Source of the DNA: an uncultured Opitutia bacterium
GTDB lineage: Bacteria; Verrucomicrobiota; Verrucomicrobiia; Opitutales; CAJWYM01
Reading direction: 5' to 3'
DNA length: 42,140 bases
NCBI GenBank assembly: GCA_913049555.1
Contig: CAJWYM010000028.1
Location: forward strand, 1 to 42,140
The stretch's first letter is position 1, and each line of letters opens with the position of its first letter. Of this stretch, positions 410 to 21,537 are shown in pieces. The position numbers were made by a program, and so were the translations under genes. The notes beneath the pieces are model-generated. The model was not told the DNA's origin. It saw only the letters and a list, made by a program, of their open reading frames with translations, and did no database searches.

Positions 410-3400
410 ATGAATCTTACTGAAATACAAAAACTTGCAGATCAAGGTATATGCGAATTCCGCAAAAGATTAGTTGAGAGTTCAAGAAGATCAAATTTGA
501 TTAACCTGAGTTTCGGTCAAACATCAACTATTCTACCGTTAATAAATAGGGATAGTAATTTGTTCATAAAACAACTACTCAATGGCAATAAAATAATTGA
601 AATTCTACCCCTGCCAGATGATGAACAAGAACCTCTAGATGAGACTGATGGTCCATTAAAATCACATTTCAAAAAAGTAGACTACGGTCCATTTATTGAA
701 GATGCTACAAAAGAAATCAAAATCAAAGGTTGGGAGCATCATTATTCAGAGAAAGAAGTAGCCCTTCGATTGGCTAAGAATGAACTCAGAAAAAGACTTC
801 AAATGGTTCCTGACTCGGTGCCTATTAGCAGAAGAGGTATTTCAAAAGAAGATTATGCTGAAATGCATTTAATTAATCCAGTATTGGAATTAAGCTCACC
901 ATTTGATTCTAATCATGGCATTTATAAAGAAAGTTCATCCTATCAAACACTTCTTAAAGAGAACGAACTGAATACTAAAATTAAGCGCTTATTAACTAGA
1001 GTAAATTCAGTAAAAAAGGAACAAGCCTACAATACTCTCTATCTAGTGTCAGGATGTCTAAACTGGATAGATTCTCAAAAACAAGAATATACCAGTCCCT
1101 TGCTCGTTATCGAGGCAGAAATAGAAAGAAAAAGTAAGAACAATAAATATAAATATTTCTTAAAATCTAACGCCAAGAATATAAATGTAAACGAAGCACT
1201 GATAGCAAGACTAGATGAAGATGGAATTGTTTTACCAAGTTTAAATGAAGACTTAGATCTTCTTGAACAAATAGATTATTACCATAATAGAGTTCACAAA
1301 ATAATTGAAACAAAACGTGGATGGCATGTCAGTAACAGGATTGCAATCAGTATCATTGATAGCAAAAAAATGGCGATTGCAAACAAGTTGAAGCGCAATA
1401 AAAGTGGGCATTCAGATCTAATAGAATCAGAACTTATCACGAAATTGCTAACGACTGTTGGAAACAGCCAACCTGGCTATCCTGAAGACTACAATTATGA
1501 TAAACATGAATATGCTGAAATTCTTCCAAAAATCGTAGAAATAGCTGATTCATCTCAAATCTCTGCAATGATAGATGTTATCAAGGGTAATAATATTGTA
1601 ATTAAAGGGCCACCAGGAACTGGCAAGAGTCAAACCCTTTCTAATATAATTGCTGATGGGCTTTATCGAGGCAAAAGGATTCTATTTATATCAGATAAAC
1701 TTGCAGCACTTGAAGTCGTCAAAAAAAGACTCGATGCAAAAGGGATTGGCCAGTTTTGCTTGGAACTACATGATGGAGGCAGTTCTAAGAAGGGAATCCT
1801 TCAAGCCCTTGAAGAACGTCTCAAACTATCTAAAATACACTTAGATGATTATAAAAACCAAAAAGAGAATTACTCTCAATATAGAGATAAGCTCAATAGA
1901 TATAGCTCTACTTTAAACGACATATACCATAATACTGGAAGAACTATTCATGATCTTATTTGGAAGTATATAACCTTAGAAGATCAAAAGAATAAAATAA
2001 CTTTAGAGAATCCGAGTAGAATAATAATCCCCAATTCCAGTTCAATAAATCCAGTATCCATTCAAGAGTTAAGTCAACGCTTAGATGCCTTAGAAAAAAG
2101 TTATAAAGAAACCGCAGCATTATATTCCAATCCCTACAATAACCCTTGGAATTTGATTAAAAACTTCAACTTGACTCCTGTTGATATTAATAACCTGAAA
2201 ATTTGTATTACTGATATCGCAAATATCACAAAAGAATTCTTAGTTTCACTTAATGAACTCAATAATATCACAGATACAGAATTCAAAAGCTGGAACGATA
2301 TTAAAATATATTTGAATAATATAAAATTGTTCAAACTACCTACATTTGAATTTACTCAACAAGATTTAAAAATACTGAAAGATCCTAAAAAAAGGGAAGC
2401 CCTTGGTTTATATAATGAAAATATAGATAAAATTTCAGCATGTCGTAAAAATATAGAACAGCATATAATCAAGGTTGAAAATATCGATATAGTTCAACCT
2501 CTACTGAATGAATTATTGCAATTATCAAATCACTTAGACTCCAGAGAAAGTGTTGACAACCCCAAACAGCTAGAACCTTTAAGCCAAGCTAAGATTAAGT
2601 ATGCGTATGCTTTAAAGTTAATCGGCAAATTGAAAAAAGAAGAAGGGGCGCTCACAGCACAAAATCTGAAGAATTTCCTTAAACTAATAAATGAAGTCTC
2701 CATCCTTGATTGGCCCTTAAAAACTAAGAAAGCTATACTAAATCCAGATATCCAAAAGGTATTTAATGATAGTTTTGAATATTGGAAGAAGTATATAGGC
2801 AAACAATTAAGTACTAGGACTCGGTTTCATAAGAACAGTTATTCTCTAAGCGATATTGAAGAAGCAATAACAAAACTAGAAGAAGCAGGTCTACTTGGCT
2901 TTCTGAGTAGTGATGTTAAAAATGCTAAGAAAGTAGCACGTGAAGTATGCCAAATGGATACTAGTGAGAAATCGTCAGCAATAAAAGAACTCAAACTATA
3001 TGCTAATTTCTTGAAGGAAAAATCTAGCTTTGAGCAAAATATAAATATTCAAAAAATTAAAGACGCTTTCAATATTTCGAGTTTGAGTGAGTTAAAAGAG
3101 TTCGAAAGGAGTTTCAATTGGTTTCAATCTCAGCTTAAAGATGGTGTGGACTCGAATGCTTTACAGATTCTATGCTCATTGAATAAAGAAGATCTTGAAG
3201 ATTTTATACACTATTCTAAAAAAGAAGAATTCAAAGTCTTATTTGATCATACGCGAGAGTTGGAATCTGATACTGATATTTCTGATTATTACAAGAACGC
3301 TATGACATCTATAGACAATCTGCTAGAAGTGCTAAACAGATATACAGATTTAGTAAATGTCAGAATTAATTCAAATTTAACGCTTAAAAGTTTAGAGGAA

Positions 3401-5485
3401 TTAGATAATTCTATCATTCGTTATTACGAGATAATTCCAGTTATTGAAAAAGAAGCATCATCTTTAGGGGAATTAAGTCTTAATCACGACTTAAAGTTAA
3501 TGCAAGAATATGCTAATTATTATTGGAAGTTGCCATTAACTGAAAATCTGCATAAGGAAGCAGATTTGAAAAAAATTCTAAGTATTCAGGCACAAATTAA
3601 TGAGGTTAGCGGTATCATGCATAGAAAATATGAAAAACTGTCAACTCTTAACAATGAATTAAAAAGTTTATCTTCAACTTCTATTGAATTAGAAGAGGTC
3701 ATATTTAGTGATGAATATCAATCCACTTTTGAAAATTGTATTAAGTACGAACAAAGCCTTAGTAGTTATATCGCTTTTGAAAAAAAGTATTTTGATTTCA
3801 ATAATACTGCATGCTCAGAAATAATTGATACTTATAAATCAAAAGAAATTCCGATGTCAGAAGTATCATTATGCTTTGATTATATTTTACATAACTCTTT
3901 AATCCAAAGTATTTATCATGAATATCCGTTTCTTAGTGAAATTGGAGTGGATGAAATGTCGGACATTCGAGTCAAATTCAGTGAGTTAGACAGTATGCTG
4001 TTAGATATTAATAAGGCTGAAATTATCCAGAAATTAAGTCAGTCCAATATTCCTGAAGGTAATAATCAGGGTCGAAAAAGAGATTTTACAGAACTAGCAT
4101 TAATTAGGAATGAAATTTCAAAACAGAAAGGTCATGTTCCACCTCGTGAACTGCTAAGAAGATCTGGGCGTGCAATTAATCAGCTCTGTCCGTGTTTCAT
4201 GATGAGTCCACTCTCTGTTGCTAGTATGCTCGAAACTAAAGCAGACTTATTTGATATGGTGCTTATTGACGAGAGTTCTCAGGTTAAAGCAGAGGAAGCT
4301 CTTCTGCCAATATACCATGCTCAACAAGTAGTGATTGTTGGGGATGAACAGCAAATGCCCCCAACAAATTTCTTCGATAAACAATTAAAAAATGATGATA
4401 ACGATGAAGATGAAGATCTGCCAACAGAAGTAAGTATCTTAGATCTCGGAATGAATACTTTCAATAATCATAGAATGTTAAATCGTCATTATCGATCCAA
4501 GCATGAACGTCTTATTCAGTTTTCTAATTATGAATTTTATCATAATAGACTCCATGTAATACCTAGCCCTAGCTTTAACTCCAAAGATCTAGGTGTACAA
4601 TACCACTATGTTCATGATGGCCAATACATTGACAAAACTAACATTTTTGAAGCGGAAGCACTTATTGATAAATTGAGCCAATTCATGTTAAAGAACAAAG
4701 ACAAATCTGTCGGGGTAGCCACTTTCAACGAATCCCAAAAAGATCTGCTCGATGAGACTTTAGAAAAAGCGATGTTAAACCATCCACATATCAGAGAATA
4801 CATTAGTAAATGGGAGGATAATGTCGAAGATTTCTTCATTAAGAATTTAGAGATGGTTCAAGGAGATGAAAGAGATGTTATGTTCATTTCCACACTTTTC
4901 GGTCCTGACAAGAATGGAATTCAAAGTAATACTCAACTTGGACCTATCTCAAGAGACGGCGGATACAAGAGGCTGAATGTTCTATTTACAAGGGCTAAAG
5001 AACAAGTCGTAATCTTTAGTAGTCTTGATATTGAGAAAATTAAAACGGATGGGAAGCATTCAGGAGCACGTATACTACGAGATTATCTTACCTATTCTAA
5101 AGAAGGTTTCATTCAAGTATCAGATAATTCAGATCGAGCACCTGATAGTGAATATGAAATTGAGGTAATGAATGAAATCAAAAATGCTGGGTATGACTGT
5201 CGACCTCAAGTTGGAGTTAATGGATTCTTCATTGATATAGGTGTAATTGATCCCAATCTTACTGGTCGCTATTTGTGTGGTATTGAATTTGATGGTGCAA
5301 CATATCATAGTTCAAGAACTGCTCGTGACAGGGACAGAATTAGGCAAGAGGTATTAGAAGCTAATGGATGGAATATTTATAGAATATGGTCTACAGATTG
5401 GATTCGAGATAAGAGAAACGAGGTCAAAAAACTCATTTCATATTTAGGATCAAGTGATCAAGATGGATTGCTACCAGTTAAATAA
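410..5485 (+). CDS. Giant superfamily 1 helicase fused to a C-terminal Vsr/MTES_1575-type nuclease (DUF4011 class), putative defence protein
   Basis: The 1691-aa protein has an N-terminal region like DUF4011 (about 1-300), then a split SF1 helicase core. Walker A is GPPGTGKS at 400-407, motif II is DESS at 1287-1290, VQGDERD is at 1483-1489 and the motif VI-like LNVLFTRAKE is at 1522-1531. Between Walker A and motif II lie nearly 900 residues, mostly charged, helical and coiled-coil-like. The last about 110 residues form a PD-(D/E)XK-like nuclease with D1609 and E1626-x-D1628 followed by a conserved His/Arg-rich helix, as in the very-short-patch-repair/MTES_1575 family. The expected activity is ATP-driven translocation on nucleic acid coupled to cleavage. 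Such COG1112-type helicase-nucleases are common in defence islands; a defence role here is inference from architecture and the tRNA-linked island. The ATG follows AAAGGT at about -14. No partner gene is coupled to it. Confidence 0.85.
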   Translation: MNLTEIQKLADQGICEFRKRLVESSRRSNLINLSFGQTSTILPLINRDSNLFIKQLLNGNKIIEILPLPDDEQEPLDETDGPLKSHFKKVDYGPFIEDATKEIKIKGWEHHYSEKEVALRLAKNELRKRLQMVPDSVPISRRGISKEDYAEMHLINPVLELSSPFDSNHGIYKESSSYQTLLKENELNTKIKRLLTRVNSVKKEQAYNTLYLVSGCLNWIDSQKQEYTSPLLVIEAEIERKSKNNKYKYFLKSNAKNINVNEALIARLDEDGIVLPSLNEDLDLLEQIDYYHNRVHKIIETKRGWHVSNRIAISIIDSKKMAIANKLKRNKSGHSDLIESELITKLLTTVGNSQPGYPEDYNYDKHEYAEILPKIVEIADSSQISAMIDVIKGNNIVIKGPPGTGKSQTLSNIIADGLYRGKRILFISDKLAALEVVKKRLDAKGIGQFCLELHDGGSSKKGILQALEERLKLSKIHLDDYKNQKENYSQYRDKLNRYSSTLNDIYHNTGRTIHDLIWKYITLEDQKNKITLENPSRIIIPNSSSINPVSIQELSQRLDALEKSYKETAALYSNPYNNPWNLIKNFNLTPVDINNLKICITDIANITKEFLVSLNELNNITDTEFKSWNDIKIYLNNIKLFKLPTFEFTQQDLKILKDPKKREALGLYNENIDKISACRKNIEQHIIKVENIDIVQPLLNELLQLSNHLDSRESVDNPKQLEPLSQAKIKYAYALKLIGKLKKEEGALTAQNLKNFLKLINEVSILDWPLKTKKAILNPDIQKVFNDSFEYWKKYIGKQLSTRTRFHKNSYSLSDIEEAITKLEEAGLLGFLSSDVKNAKKVAREVCQMDTSEKSSAIKELKLYANFLKEKSSFEQNINIQKIKDAFNISSLSELKEFERSFNWFQSQLKDGVDSNALQILCSLNKEDLEDFIHYSKKEEFKVLFDHTRELESDTDISDYYKNAMTSIDNLLEVLNRYTDLVNVRINSNLTLKSLEELDNSIIRYYEIIPVIEKEASSLGELSLNHDLKLMQEYANYYWKLPLTENLHKEADLKKILSIQAQINEVSGIMHRKYEKLSTLNNELKSLSSTSIELEEVIFSDEYQSTFENCIKYEQSLSSYIAFEKKYFDFNNTACSEIIDTYKSKEIPMSEVSLCFDYILHNSLIQSIYHEYPFLSEIGVDEMSDIRVKFSELDSMLLDINKAEIIQKLSQSNIPEGNNQGRKRDFTELALIRNEISKQKGHVPPRELLRRSGRAINQLCPCFMMSPLSVASMLETKADLFDMVLIDESSQVKAEEALLPIYHAQQVVIVGDEQQMPPTNFFDKQLKNDDNDEDEDLPTEVSILDLGMNTFNNHRMLNRHYRSKHERLIQFSNYEFYHNRLHVIPSPSFNSKDLGVQYHYVHDGQYIDKTNIFEAEALIDKLSQFMLKNKDKSVGVATFNESQKDLLDETLEKAMLNHPHIREYISKWEDNVEDFFIKNLEMVQGDERDVMFISTLFGPDKNGIQSNTQLGPISRDGGYKRLNVLFTRAKEQVVIFSSLDIEKIKTDGKHSGARILRDYLTYSKEGFIQVSDNSDRAPDSEYEIEVMNEIKNAGYDCRPQVGVNGFFIDIGVIDPNLTGRYLCGIEFDGATYHSSRTARDRDRIRQEVLEANGWNIYRIWSTDWIRDKRNEVKKLISYLGSSDQDGLLPVK

Positions 5486-11569: not shown

Positions 11570-14380
11570 TCAAAGCATCAATCCAGAGGGGAGCGTTTCT
11601 CCATAAAGAACGGAGAGATCCTTTTGAGCGATCGGTATGTATTCTTGTATCGGTTGAATTTTGGAAGCTTCTGCTCCAGTTTGTTGCATTTTTTTCACCA
11701 GTTTTGCTCGGAATTCTGGATCGATATCAATTTCGCGTTGTCCAGTAATTCTAGCTGCTTGGGCAAACAAGTCATGAATGATAGGAGCTAATTTAGAGTC
11801 CCACTCAAATTTTTCTAGCTCATCATAAACTCGAATCACTTCTTTGGAGGGAAGGACGGTTTCCATGCCAGTATACATAGGGATGCGACTCAGGGCTCTG
11901 CCGATGCACCAAAGATAAGCATCTTGGAATTTCTTGTTTTTTGTCATGAATCCTTCCAACGCGAGATTGAGAGTAAGAATCCGATCTTTTTCTTGTATCC
12001 TTTCAAAAGAGGCTAACATTCGCATCCCTTCAATTCCTTGGTTTTTGAGTTCTTTTAAGAATGGGATGAAATCTTGGAACAAGCTTTGCTGATTTTCAGC
12101 ACTCAATCCTCCAGCTACTCTTCGCCATAGGATCATTTCTTGCTCACGGGTCTGTTTGTCGGCAGGGAAATGGAGTCCTAGCTCTTTCAGCAACCATAGG
12201 GTGTTGATCTTTGCTTCATCTCCAAGACAACCATAACCGGGTCGCATAGTGTATCCGGCTGCAATAAGCCATGAAATCTCATGGTCTAAAGACCGGTAGC
12301 GCTGTGAGATTCCTTCTCCGATCAGATCCCATAAAGCTCTCAAGGTTGTAATATCCCAGTCTTTCTTCTTTTGCCCCAGAGCTTTTTCCCACTGCCTGAG
12401 TAGCCCTGTTGGTTTCAATATTAAATCTGCTTTTCGATTGGAGGATGGAAAAAGTCCAGAGCTAATATTGTTGGCTTTTTCGATCAATTCAGTTGGTAAA
12501 ATATTACTTAAAATTTCTTTTTTTTCATTTTCAGGGTTGGTTGCTAGGACCCTTAAATTGAATTCCAGTTCCCAAGTATCTCTTTGGGCTTTGAATTCTG
12601 GATCTTTTGATTTGCAGAATATTTGCATCAGACCCACTGAATTGAGTTGGCTTTCTATGGCTATTTGTATGAATTCGGGGGTCTTTTTAGGACCTTGTCC
12701 TTTCAAGTGAATTAGGCTTTGAAGAGGGGGCATTTCTTGAAAGTCACAATCGTTTATTTGAATGAGTTCCCCAGCTTTGTCCATCTCTCTTTGAGTGGAA
12801 TAATAAGGTTTGAATTGGACCGGTTGGTTGACTCTTAGTTGGAATAGATTTTTTTCTAAAATGATTGTTTCGTCGTTTTTACTTCCGAATGGTAGGATAC
12901 ACAATACATAGGGGGCATCTGAGAGGAGTCCTTTCTTCTTTTTTCTTCGGCTTGTCTTGGTCTCTTGTTTTTGTATTTCAATATAGACCGATCGGGCTGT
13001 TCCAGATTCTATCAAAGAACCCAAATTGTTTTCAGACTGCCAGCAATAATAAGAGGCGCCTCTGGCAACGGCTAGGTAGGGTTGGGGGTTTTCTAATCGG
13101 AGGATGGACTGATTTTGCCATGAAACGATTGTTTCCGTAATATTTTTTTGGATTTTTTCGGAGGAAACTGTGCCTCCGTTGAAGAGGATGGCATCGACTT
13201 TTCTACCCTTTAAAAAGTAAGCTAGGTGTTTTGTTATGGCTGACTCTTGAGCGTAGGGTAGACCTATTTCAATCAACCCACTTGGTTTTTTAGATGGATC
13301 GCAATCTGAAGTACACTTTGGGAAGAATCCTTCGTGTATAATGGAGATTACTTCATTTCCGGTGAAAGATGCAGATTTTGCTTGGCTAAAAATTTGAGAT
13401 CCTCCCGATACGATGGAGATGGGGTAGTTTTGATCCGAGGTATTATTGTCAAAGTCTAAAAGTGCCTGTTCTTTAATTTTCCTGGCTTGAGCAACCAGAG
13501 AGTTCCACTCTTGAGGGGAAATCGTGTGCCCTTGCGCTTCTAACTTGCTTTCCAGGTGTTTGGCTAAGGTCATATCAATATTGTCTCCCCCCAAGAGGAT
13601 ATGATCACTGACTGCAATTCTTCTCAATGCTACTTTTCCTGTTTCCTTATCAGGCGGAAGGGCTTCTATAAGACTAAAATCAGAGGTTCCACCTCCAATG
13701 TCACAAATCAAAATGGTTTGGGCTTTTTCCGATAAGGCAGGGAGTAGTTCGCGTATTTTGTCTGTCCCTCCATTGTTTTCCAGATAACTGTAAATTGCTG
13801 CTTGAGGTTCTTCTAGCAATTTTACATTGCTTGGGAAATTTGCCATCTGGCAGGCTTCAAGAGTTAGTTTTTGGGCTACATTGTCAAAAGATGCAGGGAC
13901 CGTAACAACAACTTCTTGCTGATTGAATTTTGCGGAGGAGTCTGTGACAGCGATCGTTTGATCCCATGCATACCTAATATAATCCAGATAGGCGCTGCTT
14001 GCTTGAATCGGGGATAATTTGTTTGAGTCAGGAATTGATTTCGAGTGCCAAGGTAATACTTTACTGCGTCTGTCAATTCCACGGTGTGCAAGCCAAGATT
14101 TTGCAGAGTGGATCACTTGATCTGGCGTCTCATTACTCTTTAGTCTGGCATAGTGTCCAGTAACATAGGAGGGCTGCCAGTCAATTTCTGCATGGGGATC
14201 CAATTTTTCTGGAAAAAGAAAGGATGGCAAGAGGTCGAATGGATGAATCGTATCCGAAGAATCTTGTTGAGGGATTCGGAATACTTCCGTCTTTGGTTTG
14301 GATTCCTCTGTATCAATATAGGAAACAGCACAGTTGCTGGTACCTAAATCAATTCCGATATAATATTTTTTTTTTGCCAT
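11570..14380 (-). CDS. Hsp70-like (DnaK-superfamily) protein with DUF3731-type C-terminal region
   Basis: The 936-aa cytosolic protein begins with a DnaK-type nucleotide-binding domain: phosphate-1 motif YYIGIDLGTSNCAVSYI (6-22), phosphate-2 motif in ILICDIGGGTSDFSLIE and adenosine motif in ILFNGGTVSS. The second half (about 480-936) replaces the DnaK substrate-binding domain with a long helical region resembling DUF3731, including LRALWDLIGEG and LWLLKELGLHF-like helices. The family occurs in proteobacteria, planctomycetes and verrucomicrobia as a large Hsp70 homologue of unclear client range; it should bind and hydrolyse ATP. I start at ATG 14380 (MAKKKYY); the frame is open to 14443, but those 21 residues are hydrophobic, unconserved-looking and not needed. 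It is divergent from the HAD gene across a 150-bp gap with no CIRCE-type heat-shock element. Confidence 0.85.
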   Translation of the reverse strand: MAKKKYYIGIDLGTSNCAVSYIDTEESKPKTEVFRIPQQDSSDTIHPFDLLPSFLFPEKLDPHAEIDWQPSYVTGHYARLKSNETPDQVIHSAKSWLAHRGIDRRSKVLPWHSKSIPDSNKLSPIQASSAYLDYIRYAWDQTIAVTDSSAKFNQQEVVVTVPASFDNVAQKLTLEACQMANFPSNVKLLEEPQAAIYSYLENNGGTDKIRELLPALSEKAQTILICDIGGGTSDFSLIEALPPDKETGKVALRRIAVSDHILLGGDNIDMTLAKHLESKLEAQGHTISPQEWNSLVAQARKIKEQALLDFDNNTSDQNYPISIVSGGSQIFSQAKSASFTGNEVISIIHEGFFPKCTSDCDPSKKPSGLIEIGLPYAQESAITKHLAYFLKGRKVDAILFNGGTVSSEKIQKNITETIVSWQNQSILRLENPQPYLAVARGASYYCWQSENNLGSLIESGTARSVYIEIQKQETKTSRRKKKKGLLSDAPYVLCILPFGSKNDETIILEKNLFQLRVNQPVQFKPYYSTQREMDKAGELIQINDCDFQEMPPLQSLIHLKGQGPKKTPEFIQIAIESQLNSVGLMQIFCKSKDPEFKAQRDTWELEFNLRVLATNPENEKKEILSNILPTELIEKANNISSGLFPSSNRKADLILKPTGLLRQWEKALGQKKKDWDITTLRALWDLIGEGISQRYRSLDHEISWLIAAGYTMRPGYGCLGDEAKINTLWLLKELGLHFPADKQTREQEMILWRRVAGGLSAENQQSLFQDFIPFLKELKNQGIEGMRMLASFERIQEKDRILTLNLALEGFMTKNKKFQDAYLWCIGRALSRIPMYTGMETVLPSKEVIRVYDELEKFEWDSKLAPIIHDLFAQAARITGQREIDIDPEFRAKLVKKMQQTGAEASKIQPIQEYIPIAQKDLSVLYGETLPSGLML

Positions 14381-14530
14381 TAGTAATTGAATATCAATTT
14401 TAGGAATGCATCGTAATAAAAATAAGATGCAGGCATCAAGCACCTATATGAATTCCAGAGGGAATTAGTTTTCTATCTCTCTCAATGAAAAAATAATTGC
14501 TAAGAAAGCCTAATTTTTTGAAGGTTAATC

Positions 14531-15482: not shown

Positions 15483-17540
15483 ATGCCCCATAACAAATTG
15501 CCCAAGGTAGTTCGTCTACATCTCTTGTTAATTCTCTGCTCTATTTTTTGTAATGCGAGTGAAATTCCAGAATGGGCGATGATGTCAATGGAGGATATCT
15601 TAAATCAAGAAGTTTCCTCTATCTCAAAATATGCCGAGAGGAGGTTAGAGGTTCCTACTGCAATTACTTTGATTAACAGTGAGGATATAGAGCGATCGGG
15701 TGCTCGATATTTTTCGGATTTGTTTCGATATGTGCCTGGAATGCAAGTCGCCAGTTCAAACGCTCATGACACCGCAATTTCTGTTCGGGGAAATTCAAGC
15801 TTTTTTGCGAATGATTTGGTTGTCCTCATGGATGGCCGGTCTCTATACAATTCTATTTTTTCTGGAGTTTTTTGGAATGCGCAGCATTACCCTTTGATGG
15901 ATTTGGAGCATGTGGAGGTCATTAAAGGACCTGGATCCACGATCTGGGGTTCTAATGCGGTTCATGGTGTGGTGAATATTACCTCAAAATCGGCGAAGGA
16001 TACGATGGGTTCCTATAGCAAAATTCACTATGGGAACGATTCTCGAGGTTCTACTTTTAGATTCGGGAGTCAAGCCAATGAAAATTTATTTTATAGAATT
16101 TACGCCATGGGTGCAGAGCATGAAAACACCAGTGGTTTTGATATTGGAAGTTTAGGTGGAGATCTGAATGGAAACTACAATGACGATTGGAAAATGGGAC
16201 AAGTGGGATTTCGAATGGATTATGAACTGGACGACTTCAAGTCGCTCACGGTCCAAGGAGATCTCTATAAAGTCTATTATGACACTACCTTTCGGGAGAA
16301 TCGAGTGGATGATCAAATCCCATTTAGAACGATTGAAAGAGTTTTTGAGGAGACAAATGGATTCAATTTGTTGGCCAGATTCAGCAGTGAGGATGAAGAT
16401 CAGGGTTATTCGTTGACTGGTTATTACGACCATTGGAGCAAACAATATACCGTTACGGATGGGATTCATCAAACTTTCAACCTTGAAAGCAATCATTACT
16501 TTACTCTGGCGGACAGACATAAAATAGGCTGGGGTAGCAGTGCCAAGTTGAATCGAATAAATTTGGATGAAACTGGTATGATCCTTGTCAATAAAGAGGA
16601 GGAAACCAACGAACTCTTCACCTTTTATTTAAAAGATGATATCACCTTGATGGACGATCTTTTGAAAGTATCAATCGGTTCTAAATTTGAAAATCATTAT
16701 TACACGGGTTGGGGATATCAACCAACCATTCGAGCTCGATACAAACTAGAGGATGCACATTTATTTTGGGCAGCAGCGACAAAATCCATTCGAAATCCAA
16801 ATTTTGTCAACCGGCATTTAACGACTAATATTATCAATAATGATTATTCGGATTCGATTCCTTTTCCAGTTCGGTCCTCTCAATCTAATAACTCAGATTT
16901 TAATGAGGAAAATATCCAAACCTTCGAATTAGGACACAGGCTGGTTCCTGGAGAAAATGATGATTGGACGGTTGAAACTTCTATTTTCTATCGAATTGTT
17001 GATGAAGCGATTACTTATGAGATCACCAATCAATCCCAGACTCAAACTACCATCCAACCTGTAAATATGAGAAAAAATGAAGCTTATGGTGGAGAGCTAA
17101 GCGTATTGCGGAAATTTAAAGATAATTGGAAAGTTTCTCTAGGATATAGCTATTATGAAATTAAATCGAAAATGACCAACGGCGAAGTAGATATTTTTCC
17201 AGAGGGAAAGGGTGGAGAGGATCCGAAGCATCAGTTATTTTTAAAATCTGCCTATGATTTCAATCAAAAATGGTCTATGGATTGGGGAATTCGCTACATT
17301 TCTTCTTTAGACCTAACCGTGCCTGCCACTTCTTCTCTGCTTCCTGAAAAGTATTCTATTCCTGCATACCTTGAGTTGGATTCAGTGATTCGATGGAAGC
17401 CTTATAAAGGAATGACGATTTCCCTAGTGGGTAAAAATTTATTAGACAAGCAGCATCCTGAGTTTGCTGATTTATCATTCGCCAGCGGTAAATCAGAGGT
17501 TGGTAGAACGATACTTGGGCAACTCGAATACAGGTTTTAG
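15483..17540 (+). CDS. TonB-dependent outer-membrane receptor
   Basis: The 685-aa protein starts with a Sec signal peptide (hydrophobic RLHLLLILCSIFCNAS), then a plug domain (about 45-170) with LFRYVPGMQVASSNAHDTAI, SVRGNSSFFANDLVVLMDGR and VEVIKGPGSTIWGSNAVHGV. A 22-strand-type barrel follows and ends in QLEYRF with the C-terminal Phe expected for BamA insertion. It imports or senses an unidentified ligand across the outer membrane with TonB energy. I prefer ATG 15483 (MPHNKL) because the signal peptide follows directly; the frame is open from 15411, overlapping the HAD gene. It is followed after 20 nt by a YfiR-family gene and then a kinase with a periplasmic sensor, suggesting the three act together. 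No N-terminal FecR-interacting extension is seen. Confidence 0.9.
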   Translation: MPHNKLPKVVRLHLLLILCSIFCNASEIPEWAMMSMEDILNQEVSSISKYAERRLEVPTAITLINSEDIERSGARYFSDLFRYVPGMQVASSNAHDTAISVRGNSSFFANDLVVLMDGRSLYNSIFSGVFWNAQHYPLMDLEHVEVIKGPGSTIWGSNAVHGVVNITSKSAKDTMGSYSKIHYGNDSRGSTFRFGSQANENLFYRIYAMGAEHENTSGFDIGSLGGDLNGNYNDDWKMGQVGFRMDYELDDFKSLTVQGDLYKVYYDTTFRENRVDDQIPFRTIERVFEETNGFNLLARFSSEDEDQGYSLTGYYDHWSKQYTVTDGIHQTFNLESNHYFTLADRHKIGWGSSAKLNRINLDETGMILVNKEEETNELFTFYLKDDITLMDDLLKVSIGSKFENHYYTGWGYQPTIRARYKLEDAHLFWAAATKSIRNPNFVNRHLTTNIINNDYSDSIPFPVRSSQSNNSDFNEENIQTFELGHRLVPGENDDWTVETSIFYRIVDEAITYEITNQSQTQTTIQPVNMRKNEAYGGELSVLRKFKDNWKVSLGYSYYEIKSKMTNGEVDIFPEGKGGEDPKHQLFLKSAYDFNQKWSMDWGIRYISSLDLTVPATSSLLPEKYSIPAYLELDSVIRWKPYKGMTISLVGKNLLDKQHPEFADLSFASGKSEVGRTILGQLEYRF

Positions 17541-17560
17541 TTTCCGGCTTATTTGTCATC

Positions 17561-18109
17561 ATGAAACTTCATAAAAATCGTTTTTTCAAACCATGGTTTA
17601 CTTGTGTGTATACCCTGTGTTTGTTCGCGAATTTTTCGTATTCCATGGAAAGTGAACAGGAGTCTCAAATGAAAGCGGGTATGGTTTTAAATCTATCTCG
17701 TTTCACCGAATGGCCTAATCAATTAAAGGGACAAAATAGCTTTACGATTGTTTTGTATGAAGCAAAAAATTTAAAACGAATGGAAGCAGGTTTTGAAAAG
17801 CTAAAAGTTCAAGGATTGCCCGTTGATTTAGTGAATTATTATGAAGGTATGGATCTTCAAAAAGTCCAAATTCTGTTTATTGGAGAACAAACCGAAGATG
17901 AGATTAAAATAACATTGTTAGAGGAATTCTCTAAGTATGAAGTCCTCACTATTTCGGAAGCTGAGGATTTTGCAGAGAATGGAGGTATGGTTCGATTGTA
18001 TAAGTTGGACAAGAAAATGACTTTTGATGTCAATGTTGGAGCGATTCGTGCTTCTAAATTAAAGATGAGCAGCCGTGTCTTGAAATTGGCCAAAGGGATT
18101 ATACGGTGA
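17561..18109 (+). CDS. YfiR-family (DUF4154) periplasmic signalling protein
   Basis: The 182-aa protein has a signal peptide (FTCVYTLCLFANFSYSME) and the DUF4154/YfiR fold signature: MKAGMVLNLSRFTEWPNQ near the mature N-terminus, a central FTIVLYEAKNL strand, QILFIGEQ, and a C-terminal GGMVRLYKLDKKMTFDVNVG with ASKLKMSSRVLKLAK. In Pseudomonas, YfiR binds the periplasmic domain of the YfiN cyclase and holds it inactive. Here the adjacent gene is a CHASE8-type kinase, so YfiR probably regulates that kinase. Its TGA overlaps the kinase ATG by one base (TGATG), which indicates translational coupling. No conserved Cys pairs are visible in the mature part. Confidence 0.85.
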   Translation: MKLHKNRFFKPWFTCVYTLCLFANFSYSMESEQESQMKAGMVLNLSRFTEWPNQLKGQNSFTIVLYEAKNLKRMEAGFEKLKVQGLPVDLVNYYEGMDLQKVQILFIGEQTEDEIKITLLEEFSKYEVLTISEAEDFAENGGMVRLYKLDKKMTFDVNVGAIRASKLKMSSRVLKLAKGIIR

Positions 18110-20496
18110 TGTCATTTCTCAAGGTTTATATACGAAATCGGTCAGTTGGGAGCAAATTGTTGTATTTACTACTCACATTTACGCTGACTGGCTTAGCTGT
18201 ATTGGCAATTGCAATTATTTCTCATAACTATAAATCCTCTCGAGAAGACAGTCTTCTATACACAAATAGTATCGCTGAAATTATAAGCGGTAACATTCAA
18301 GCAGCATTGCTTTTTAATGACAAAGCAAGCGTAGAAGATACCATTTCAATCATCAAAGAGATTCCACAATTTCAAAGTATTATCATTTATGACAAAGAGG
18401 GTGGGATTTATACCTATTACCACCGATTGAATCAAATTCCTCCTCCTCAGGTCAACCAAGACAATCATCAACCATTGATAGACAAGGGAGTGTTGTCTAT
18501 TCACAAGGAAATTGTTGTAGATGACGAAAGAATTGGAAATCTTGTTTTGCAGTATGATTTGATTGAGGAGAGCAGAAAATTAATAGAATTAACGATTTTT
18601 TGTATATTTACTATTCTTTTCATTTTAATTGTCATGCTCGTATTATTAAGAACATTTAAAGATTATTTTGTCTGGCCGATCCTTCAATTGTCTGAGACTG
18701 CGGAAAAGGTTTCTAAACATAAGGACTATTCTCTGCGAGTTAAGTACAAAAGCAAAGATGAAATAGGGAAGTCGATTCAAGCTTTCAATGGTATGCTGGA
18801 GACAATTGAATCTCAGGACATTACTCTAAAGGAATTGAACAGTCACCTTGAAGAAAGAGTTCAGTTGCGGACTGAGAAGTTGAATGAGGCTCTAGGGGCT
18901 GCCAAAGATGCAAATGATGCAAAAACTAGGTTTTTAGCCAACATGTCTCACGAGATTCGAACTCCATTGAATGGCATTATTGGTCTGTCCCACATCGCAA
19001 TTGAGAAGTCATCGGGCCCCTCTAAGAAACTTCTGCAAGAAGTGAATAAGACTGGCAATTCATTGTTACACATTATCAATGAAATTTTAGACTTATCCAA
19101 GATTGAAGCCGGGAAAATGCAGATTGAGAGTGTGCCATTTGAAACCACTGAAATGTTTGATGTGATCAAAAGTATCCACTTTGTGAAAGCGAAAGAAAAA
19201 GGTGTTGATTTTGAGATTCTATTAGATCCTCAATTGCCATCGTATTTAATTGGAGATGAGACAAAAATTCGCCAAGTGTTAATCAACTTAATAGGCAATG
19301 CAATCAAGTTTACTTCAGTAGGTAAAGTGCAATTATTTGTAAAACTGTGCGAAGAAAATGAAGACACCGCAATCATTTCTTATTTAGTCAAAGATACTGG
19401 TATTGGAATCCCTCAGGCTAAATTAAAAGCTCTGTTCGATCCATTTGTTCAATTGGATGACTCAGCATCCCGTAGGTTTGGAGGAACTGGATTAGGTTTG
19501 GCGATTTGCAAAGAAATTATCAATCAATTGAATAGTGAAATTGAGGTGAACAGTATCTTGAATGGAGGAAGCGAGTTTTCATTTAAAATTAGATACAAAA
19601 CTGCCTCTAAAAAGGTTTTGGACAGTCAGTTTAACAGCACCTTAAAAAGATCCCTTAAAAGTAAAAAGGAAAAGTTATCCGGTCGTAGGTTTTTGGTGGT
19701 GGATGACAATGAGACCAATTTAGTGATTACGAAACATATCATTGAAAATCTTGGCGGCTCAGTAATTACTGCATACAATGGACAAGAATGTTTGGATTTA
19801 GTCAAAAGACATCGTTTTGAATTAATTATGATGGATTTGCAGATGCCTATCATGACTGGCTATGAGGCAATTCAAAAAATCCGTGGAGAACATAAAGTAG
19901 ATACCCCAGTAATAGCTCTGACCGCTCATGCATTCAGTGAAGATCGCAAAAGATGTTTGGATGAAGGTTTTAGTGATTATATTACAAAACCTATTGATGC
20001 CGATAAATTGATCAATTCTATCATCCTTCTTCTTGAAAATGCCGATCCTGTCGATACCAAATTGGATAAAGAAGAGGACAAATCCATACATGAACAAAAA
20101 CCAGAGACCCAAGAGTTGATCGCTTTTTGGGAGGAGATTGAGGGCCTTAATTTCCAAGATGCTTTGTCTCGGATGCTGGACAATAAAGATCTTTACAGTT
20201 CTTTATTGTCACGCTTCGAAAGTGAGTCTTCTGGATATATGGATAAAATTCAAAAAGCCTTTGATTCCCAAGAGTGTGAAGAAATCATTTTTATCATCCA
20301 CAAATTAACCAACGTTTTGTGTAATCTTGGATTTGATTCTTTTGTGGATCGCTTACAGCGACTCGAGAAAGAATTGAGAGATCAGGGTTATGATCAGGAT
20401 AAGCATCAATCAAAATCGGAATTGATTGTTCAAGAAGTGCAGAATATTAAAAATTGCATCCGGGAAAGTCGTAACTCTTCATTAATCATTAAATAA
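18109..20496 (+). CDS. Hybrid sensor histidine kinase: CHASE8-like sensor, HAMP, HisKA, HATPase, receiver, HPt
   Basis: The 795-aa inner-membrane protein has TM1 at about 15-40, a periplasmic domain with the CHASE8 pattern (NIQAALLFNDKASVEDTISI), TM2 at about 160-182 and a HAMP segment. The HisKA box is MSHEIRTPLNGIIG with H281. Next come the N box (NLIGNAIKF), G1 (DTGIGIP), G2 (GGTGLGLAI) and a receiver with acceptor D576 (MMDLQMPIMTGYEA) and KPID. The C-terminal module looks like HPt around H731 in FIIHKLTNVLCNLGFD; the usual small/Gly residues after HKL are altered, so transfer activity is uncertain. The start is ATG 18109 overlapping the YfiR stop; a GTG one codon earlier is also open. 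No DNA-binding output is present, so a separate regulator outside the window is expected. Its end overlaps the convergent LacI-type pseudogene by 15 bp. Confidence 0.9.
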   Translation: MSFLKVYIRNRSVGSKLLYLLLTFTLTGLAVLAIAIISHNYKSSREDSLLYTNSIAEIISGNIQAALLFNDKASVEDTISIIKEIPQFQSIIIYDKEGGIYTYYHRLNQIPPPQVNQDNHQPLIDKGVLSIHKEIVVDDERIGNLVLQYDLIEESRKLIELTIFCIFTILFILIVMLVLLRTFKDYFVWPILQLSETAEKVSKHKDYSLRVKYKSKDEIGKSIQAFNGMLETIESQDITLKELNSHLEERVQLRTEKLNEALGAAKDANDAKTRFLANMSHEIRTPLNGIIGLSHIAIEKSSGPSKKLLQEVNKTGNSLLHIINEILDLSKIEAGKMQIESVPFETTEMFDVIKSIHFVKAKEKGVDFEILLDPQLPSYLIGDETKIRQVLINLIGNAIKFTSVGKVQLFVKLCEENEDTAIISYLVKDTGIGIPQAKLKALFDPFVQLDDSASRRFGGTGLGLAICKEIINQLNSEIEVNSILNGGSEFSFKIRYKTASKKVLDSQFNSTLKRSLKSKKEKLSGRRFLVVDDNETNLVITKHIIENLGGSVITAYNGQECLDLVKRHRFELIMMDLQMPIMTGYEAIQKIRGEHKVDTPVIALTAHAFSEDRKRCLDEGFSDYITKPIDADKLINSIILLLENADPVDTKLDKEEDKSIHEQKPETQELIAFWEEIEGLNFQDALSRMLDNKDLYSSLLSRFESESSGYMDKIQKAFDSQECEEIIFIIHKLTNVLCNLGFDSFVDRLQRLEKELRDQGYDQDKHQSKSELIVQEVQNIKNCIRESRNSSLIIK

Positions 20497-21537
20497 AAGG
20501 GTGGACGTTCTTGGAATCAATGATGGTGCAATCTTAGTTGTTTTCGATGGGGATTCATGGTTTAAAATCTTCACAAGCATTTCAGAAGCGGCTTCCATCA
20601 TTCGGTCAGGATTTTGATCGATCGAGGTGAGTTCAGGATAGCAGAACTTTGAAGATTCTTGGTTGTCATGTCCGATGATCAGTAAATCTTTTGGAATCGA
20701 TAGGTGCTTTTTTCTTAAATATTGAATCACCCCCATAGCCACACGATCGTTCAATGCGATCACTCCATCTGGTAGTGGATTTTTGTTTATTAGATCTTTA
20801 GCTAATTGCATTCAATATTCAGCAGTATGAAGAGTGGAGTAAGGTTTGTGACTGTATATAAAATCGATATTTTCTTGATTTAATTTGCATTTTTTTAATA
20901 TGGAGCTCAAACGAGAGCATCTTTGGGTGCCGTATCCGTTGTCATAGGGATCGATTCCGATACAAGCAATTGTTTTCACTCCTTTGTCGATCAAATATTG
21001 GATAGACAATTCAAGGGATTTCGAACAATCCAGAAGAATCGTTGGAATATTTTCTACTAAAACTAGGGGATCAATCAGTAATATCGGAATCGATTGATTT
21101 TCGATGATTGAATAGCAATGATTCGATGGCTCCATTTTGCTTGCTATAAAAAGAATAGCTTCCACGTGCATACCAATTAGATGATTCACTGCATTCTTGC
21201 GAAGCTCATTGTCTCCTTTAGTGAGTTCAATGATGCCATGGAATCCTTTAGCCCTTAAAGATTTTTGGAGAGCTGAAACTTTAGTTGAAAGAATTGGAGA
21301 GTCCAATTCGTCAAAACAAATACCAATCAGACCTGATTTTCCTCATCTCAGAGTCTTGGCAAGTTTATTAGGTTGGAATCCTAGTTCAATGGAGGCTTCT
21401 TTAATTCTCTTAACTGTTTTAGCATGGATGTTTTTGTGACCATTTAAAGCTCTAGAAATTGTCCACCTTGATAGACCCAAATGCTTTGCCAGTGCTTCCG
21501 TGGTTTCAATTTTTTTAACCGATTTTTTTATGCCCAT
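20482..21537 (-). pseudogene. LacI-family transcriptional regulator with two in-frame TGA stops
   Basis: One continuous reading frame encodes a complete LacI-type protein (about 350 codons). It has an N-terminal helix-turn-helix (TTEALAKHLGLSRWTISRAL, hinge helix LGFQPNKLAKTLR), then a periplasmic-binding-protein-like sensor (GLIGICFDELDSPILSTKV, later PDGVIALNDRVAMGV and LIIGHDNQESSKFCYPELTS). It is cut by TGA at 21345..21343 directly after the hinge and by TGA at 20814..20812 after HTAEY. No shift of frame is needed to join the parts. Family members often have a small or Gly-like residue at both places, so each stop could be one substitution from GGA. As it stands only the 64-aa DNA-binding part and two headless sensor pieces could be made. 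Other genes in the window use TGA as a normal stop. Confidence 0.85.

Follow-up and report, generated by a model that had tools for sequence, protein, structure and literature searches.

The closest described relatives of the locus studied here are YfiBNR (TpbB) of Pseudomonas aeruginosa, DgcN-YfiR of Escherichia coli, and HmsCDE of Yersinia pestis. Malone (2012) described YfiR and YfiN[PAS] as a modular core that is joined to various outputs (kinase, HPt, GGDEF-EAL, MCP) and in many cases occurs in the absence of YfiB. In that work, the patch by which YfiN docks YfiR is given as AAVVF with a protruding Phe, the docking residues are reported as conserved across YfiR systems with kinase, HPt or MCP outputs, and TonB is not mentioned (PMC3375315). 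A triad of a TonB receptor, a YfiR-like protein and a sensor kinase is catalogued in NCBIfam by the models NF053590 (TOL_0244), NF053591 (TOL_0243 YfiR-like), and NF053592 ("sensor histidine kinase, YfiR-like protein-associated"). TOL_0244 of Thalassolituus oleivorans, which was sevenfold upregulated on n-C28 alkane, resembles OmpS of Alcanivorax dieselolei, a protein that is needed for the detection of alkanes and triggers chemotaxis (PMC6304351). A search of the literature for a link between YfiR and a TonB receptor retrieved no paper. Trios of this type are catalogued and known in kind, and their working has apparently never been tested.

Genes and domains of the trio

The analyzed window, i.e., the whole stretch of 42,140 nucleotides from an uncultured Opitutia bacterium, contains a trio of genes with the following features.

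15483..17540, plus strand: TonB-dependent outer-membrane receptor, 685 aa (ATG 15483, stop 17540)
17561..18109, plus strand: YfiR (DUF4154) periplasmic protein, 182 aa (PF13689)
18106..20496, plus strand: hybrid histidine kinase TM-CHASE8-TM-HAMP-HisKA-HATPase-REC-HPt, about 795 aa (Pfam domains)
18265..18549, plus strand: CHASE8 periplasmic sensor domain, residues 54-148 (PF17152, 56.9 bits, cut-off 27)
18301..18315, plus strand: AALLF, counterpart of the YfiR-docking patch AAVVF of P. aeruginosa YfiN
18676..18810, plus strand: HAMP (PF00672, 25.0 bits, exactly at the cut-off of 25)
18919..19113, plus strand: HisKA with His282 at 18949-18951 (PF00512, 69.5 bits)
19252..19596, plus strand: HATPase_c (PF02518, 88.4 bits)
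19693..20022, plus strand: receiver with Asp577 at 19834-19836 (PF00072, 97.1 bits)
20203..20451, plus strand: HPt with His732 at 20299-20301 (PF01627, 28.8 bits, cut-off 24.6)

With the exception of HAMP, the window domains plainly clear their Pfam cut-offs. The initial annotation had recognized a receptor, YfiR and a CHASE8 hybrid kinase, with a TGATG overlap between the latter two genes, and had expected CHASE8 in residues 40-160; the ORFs and Pfam domains agree with this reading, including the position of CHASE8.

The receptor carries a Plug domain (79.2 bits, Pfam) and a hydrophobic signal segment at residues 6-28. It matched NF053590 over profile positions 3-604 with 438.8 bits, below the cut-off of 645, and is the sole TOL_0244-type (OmpS-type) receptor of its genome, the next best match scoring 59 bits. 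By sequence, the closest solved receptors are the colicin I receptor and BtuB, with the similarity running through the plug region. We presume that the receptor is the input of the module. FecA-type systems are similar in that a TonB receptor relays a signal inwards, but no N-terminal STN signalling domain was detected on the window receptor (Pfam, E ≤ 1; Plug only), no sigma or anti-sigma genes adjoin the trio, and the messenger would here be a soluble periplasmic protein. An STN/FecA mechanism was rejected because of the missing STN domain.

YfiR scored 111.7 bits against PF13689 (Pfam; cut-off 24.9, E 4e-32) and 84.4 bits against NF053591, below the cut-off of 125. Its AlphaFold model, based on 34 sequences, reached a pLDDT of 88.6, and the best 15 matches of this model in the PDB were all solved YfiR chains (TM-score 0.72-0.82), with up to 0.82 for YfiR of P. 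aeruginosa. A phmmer search of the PDB with the window YfiR was non-significant (E 0.15); the fold was nevertheless assigned because the predicted structure matches that of solved YfiR. The mature window protein contains no Cys, and the redox switch by disulfide formation known from P. aeruginosa YfiR was rejected for this reason. By analogy, YfiR is presumed to repress the CHASE8 sensor.

The kinase gene starts either with GTG at 18106 or with ATG at 18109 and ends at 20496. In the TGATG junction, the TGA stop codon of yfiR (18107-18109) overlaps the ATG (18109-18111) of the kinase gene. TM helices at residues 16-41 and 156-190 (approximately) lie on both sides of CHASE8, and the AlphaFold model of this domain (pLDDT 90.7) has a PAS/Cache-like sensor fold. 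The phosphorelay residues His282 (HisKA), Asp577 (REC), and His732 (HPt) are all intact. Against NF053592, the kinase obtained 132.6 bits, below the cut-off of 194. The trio agrees with the NCBIfam triad in its three genes and their order and matches the models over nearly their full length, but stays under all three curated cut-offs, which makes it a divergent relative rather than a named member. In L104, a locus with the architecture of the window, the receptor and YfiR also remain under the NCBIfam cut-offs, and all three cut-offs are passed in the Opitutae relative L123.

The YfiBNR-type systems share with the trio the YfiR fold, CHASE8 and HAMP, the AAxxF docking patch (AALLF in the window), and the location of yfiR beside the sensor gene, in the window with the TGATG overlap. 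The trio differs from them in that a TonB receptor is present in place of the lipoprotein YfiB, in the sensor output, which is HisKA-HATPase-REC-HPt and not GGDEF, and in a mature YfiR without cysteines and hence without disulfide switch. YfiB, an OmpA-like lipoprotein, was not present among the operon neighbours (HAD hydrolase, TonB receptor, LacI-type gene), and no response regulator adjoins the window kinase. The LacI-type ligand-binding region (20482-21306, minus strand) is interrupted by a single in-frame TGA (20812-20814); it may be a pseudogene, the gene may start internally, or the sequence may contain an error. Elsewhere, the window encodes a 1691-aa DUF4011-helicase-MTES_1575 nuclease protein (410-5485, plus strand), which we take to resemble proteins encoded in defence loci, and a DnaK-related protein with a C-terminal DUF3731 (11570-14443, minus strand).

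Conservation of the gene order

YfiR proteins of relatives were found with an eight-sequence alignment as query, whereas the window YfiR alone retrieved no relatives in the genome contigs. The named-genome YfiR loci came from Verrucomicrobiota, Bacteroidota, Gemmatimonadota, Acidobacteriota, Gammaproteobacteria, and others, and 69 of them had both flanks. A CHASE8 gene followed yfiR in 63 of these 69 loci and a TonB receptor gene preceded it in 60. The complete order TonB>YfiR>CHASE8 was present in 56 of the 69 and in 33 of the 56 loci of a Verrucomicrobiota survey, both sets having been fetched by YfiR or "near YfiR" kinase queries and thus being biased towards linked cases. The receptor was missing upstream of YfiR-CHASE8 in 13 of the 56 survey loci. 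YfiR loci with a CHASE8 kinase also came from cultured species, e.g., Chryseolinea serpens DSM 24574 (L189), Telluribacter humicola (L206), and Sediminibacterium roseum (L160). The commonest YfiR-kinase junction was a 4-base start-stop overlap (26 cases), and the gap between the TonB receptor and yfiR was ≤ 30 bases in 93 of 101 cases.

A receptor-first search in Gammaproteobacteria, which did not use YfiR, showed that 21 of 31 TOL_0244-type receptors adjoin YfiR; for two more of these 31 (L296, L311), YfiR is encoded in an overlapping ORF. Receptors of the TOL_0244 family without adjoining YfiR were present in L300, L304, L307, L312, and L313. High-scoring TOL_0244-type receptors occurred once per genome, even in genomes with more than 70 receptor-like matches. 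As the gene order recurs in both survey sets and in the receptor-first search, the arrangement is not a matter of chance. The conserved order, for which the initial annotation had suggested a survey across Verrucomicrobiota, reaches far outside this phylum and was also seen in Bacteroidota, Gemmatimonadota, Acidobacteriota, and Gammaproteobacteria.

The TonB-YfiR unit also behaves as a pair. At L113:6061-15077, three tandem TonB-YfiR pairs are followed by one CHASE8-PAS-HK-REC-REC kinase, and several receptors may feed one sensor there. Repeats of the pair were also found in L120 and L289, and receptor and YfiR stay together where the kinase is located elsewhere. Such repeated and stable pairs suggest that receptors have specific YfiR partners. 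Pairs without an adjoining CHASE8 sensor are present in L117 (5645-8394), L118, L119, and L120; those of L117 come after G6PD, OpcA, and a gene of the glucosamine-isomerase/6-phosphogluconolactonase family.

Co-occurrence and co-diversification of YfiR and CHASE8

Within 52 genomes of the order, YfiR was present in 12 and CHASE8 in 13, the latter including all of the former. CHASE8 was thus found in 12/12 genomes with YfiR vs. 1/40 genomes without it (p 6e-11), so that YfiR and CHASE8 co-occur in other genomes. Neither a lack of such co-occurrence nor a lack of CHASE8 similarity in the sensor region, which the initial annotation had named as grounds for refutation, was thus observed. Linkage alone is insufficient to explain this co-occurrence, because in three genomes (G001, G026, G044) the CHASE8 kinase is located together with its own regulator on another contig than YfiR (L244-L246). 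The window genome encodes exactly two YfiR and two CHASE8 proteins, in two clusters.

Co-diversification was analyzed as the correlation of tree distances in 85 complete triads. The distances of YfiR and CHASE8 were correlated with r 0.86 (partial 0.76), whereas CHASE8 and the kinase core, although parts of one polypeptide, reached only r 0.39 (partial 0.10). This gap is not noise, because the split-half reliabilities were ≥ 0.90. The values were r 0.60 (partial 0.21) for TonB-YfiR and r 0.28 (partial 0.03) for the TonB receptor and the kinase core. The TonB-YfiR signal stems from the cross-phylum set (r 0.74, partial 0.48) and was absent in the 31 Verrucomicrobiota triads (r 0.16, partial 0.06), so that coupling of the receptor may be loose there or one receptor may be replaceable by another. 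In summary, YfiR and CHASE8 form a fixed core, the kinase core has the character of a replaceable module, and the coupling of the receptor is looser.

The protruding Phe of the docking patch, which is also present in the window kinase, was kept in 120 of 123 YfiR-adjoining sensors vs. 6 of 16 sensors without YfiR in the locus (p 4e-9; the counts carry no correction for relatedness). In the CHASE8-like hybrid kinases of four YfiR-less loci (L090, L092, L093, L101), PLLE and a gap replace AAxxF. An unidentified protein is encoded upstream of the kinase in all four loci (240 aa in L090), and these kinases possibly use another periplasmic partner.

Outputs and candidate response regulators

The outputs behind YfiR-adjoining CHASE8 domains include plain and hybrid kinases. 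HPt is not unique to the window, being also part of the hybrid kinases of L104 and L298. An MCP follows CHASE8 in L064, L075, and L286, the last of these being a TonB-YfiR-CHASE8-MCP cluster; GAF-SpoIIE follows in L094, and GGDEF-EAL in L287 and L288. The genome of the window itself contains a second module with a further output.

L108:6144-10688 (G000:C1), minus strand: YfiR, TonB receptor, and CHASE8-HAMP-class III nucleotide cyclase

This cyclase was recognized by PF00211 with 94.8 bits. The input parts are those of the window trio, but the gene order YfiR-TonB-CHASE8, the FepA/CirA-like type of the receptor, and the output all differ from it. The novelty of the trio is lower than implied by the initial annotation, since kinase, HPt, and MCP outputs were reported in 2012 (PMC3375315) and NCBIfam models cover all three genes. 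Class III cyclase and SpoIIE outputs were found here and do not appear in the consulted passages of that paper; together with the TonB receptor as a recurrent input, they are apparently unreported.

A REC-GGDEF-EAL regulator commonly comes next after the hybrid kinase in triads of Gammaproteobacteria. At L298:6793-11787, beside a TonB receptor and YfiR, a single protein of 1664 aa has the organization CHASE8-HAMP-HisKA-HATPase-REC-HPt-REC-GGDEF-EAL, i.e., the architecture of the window kinase fused to the regulator, with three Pfam receiver stretches vs. one in the window. The initial annotation had suggested a search for an orphan response regulator, and candidates do exist: the window genome has 16 REC matches, and REC proteins without a neighbouring kinase include REC-GGDEF-EAL (L235:4772-6442), REC-GGDEF (L239:5400-6392), a cNMP-binding/REC protein, and three sigma-54 activators. 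The L298 fusion and the Gammaproteobacterial triads make the orphan REC-GGDEF-EAL protein the first candidate partner, and by this analogy the output of the window kinase may be c-di-GMP, via a phosphorelay to this protein. We regard this as a lean only, because in Opitutae relatives a REC-LuxR regulator is encoded directly upstream of the receptor gene of the triad, which there points to transcription and not to c-di-GMP. A LuxR-type partner was not found in a scan of ten REC proteins of the window genome, which did not extend to some others such as one on C16 and two on C52.

Proposed mechanism and alternative explanations

The window trio is real, conserved, and in outline was rightly interpreted by the initial annotation, whose suggested checks, as far as they were covered here, all gave a favourable result; it is a divergent member of a catalogued system. 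Regarding its mode of action, we consider it fairly probable that the receptor stands in the place of YfiB, that YfiR represses CHASE8, and that relief from repression starts a phosphorelay, the output of which may be c-di-GMP. The TonB receptor in the outer membrane would be the input, in the position held by YfiB in YfiBNR. YfiR would act as periplasmic messenger, binding CHASE8 of the kinase via the AALLF patch and holding the kinase off; that control is exerted by repression is suggested by homology with YfiNR. Ligand or receptor occupancy, either directly or via ligand entry into the periplasm, would remove YfiR, whereupon CHASE8 and HAMP would turn the kinase on. Phosphate would then pass from His282 via Asp577 and His732 to a response regulator from another locus, for which the orphan REC-GGDEF-EAL and REC-GGDEF proteins are the most plausible candidates, and the c-di-GMP level would change. 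Of the sensing through YfiR from the outer membrane that had been proposed initially, the link between YfiR and CHASE8 is strongly supported, whereas we infer the link between receptor and YfiR from the gene order and the weaker co-diversification, which is absent within Verrucomicrobiota. More tentatively, we suggest that TOL_0244/OmpS-type receptors might directly control YfiR as a widespread route distinct from FecA/STN/anti-sigma signalling, with YfiB replaced and with interchangeable outputs, namely phosphorelay, c-di-GMP enzymes, chemoreceptors, class III nucleotide cyclase, and SpoIIE phosphatase.

The receptor could also serve as a transporter only, with the small-molecule-binding YfiR or CHASE8 sensing the imported ligand and no contact between receptor and YfiR, which we regard as rather unlikely. 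It would be in line with the binding of vitamin B6 and L-Trp by P. aeruginosa YfiR in crystals (PMC4887326), with the weak resemblance of the YfiR model to solute-binding folds, e.g., 3lft and 3lkv, with the PAS/Cache-like model of CHASE8, with the n-C28 alkane uptake proposed for TOL_0244 (PMC6304351), and with the weak TonB-YfiR co-diversification inside Verrucomicrobiota. The repeated TonB-YfiR pairs in L113, L120, and L289, maintained even without a nearby kinase, and the partial correlation of 0.48 in the cross-phylum set argue against it.

Even less probable is a regulated uptake operon, in which the kinase responds to another signal and has receptor expression as its main target, the gene order reflecting co-regulation. 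Whereas the REC-LuxR gene directly upstream of the receptor gene in Opitutae relatives would fit such a role, the window trio has no adjoining DNA-binding regulator, the outputs found in Gammaproteobacteria are not transcription factors but either enzymes of c-di-GMP or chemoreceptors, and co-regulation explains neither the co-diversification of YfiR and CHASE8 nor the conserved docking Phe. That a TonB receptor came to lie beside a YfiR-kinase pair by chance is contradicted by the surveys and hardly credible: the receptor type does vary, as seen for the FepA/CirA-like receptor of the second module, but the order recurs across phyla and the high-scoring TOL_0244-type receptors are single even in receptor-rich genomes.

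If the preferred reading is correct and the receptor acts via YfiR, many bacteria of at least five phyla would have in common a signalling from ligand recognition at the outer membrane to the cytoplasm that works without sigma factors, and YfiB of Pseudomonas would represent only one among several inputs that are possible. To our knowledge, the route from alkane-sensing OmpS-type receptors to the cytoplasm is unsolved; direct control of YfiR by the receptor would, if true, explain how OmpS reaches it. OmpS and TOL_0244 belong to the same TonB receptor family as the window receptor, the alkane-related findings concerning the family and not the window protein, and the hypothesis is therefore testable in organisms that have already been studied. 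The window trio extends this family of systems by a divergent member, and its genome possesses the module twice and with two different outputs.
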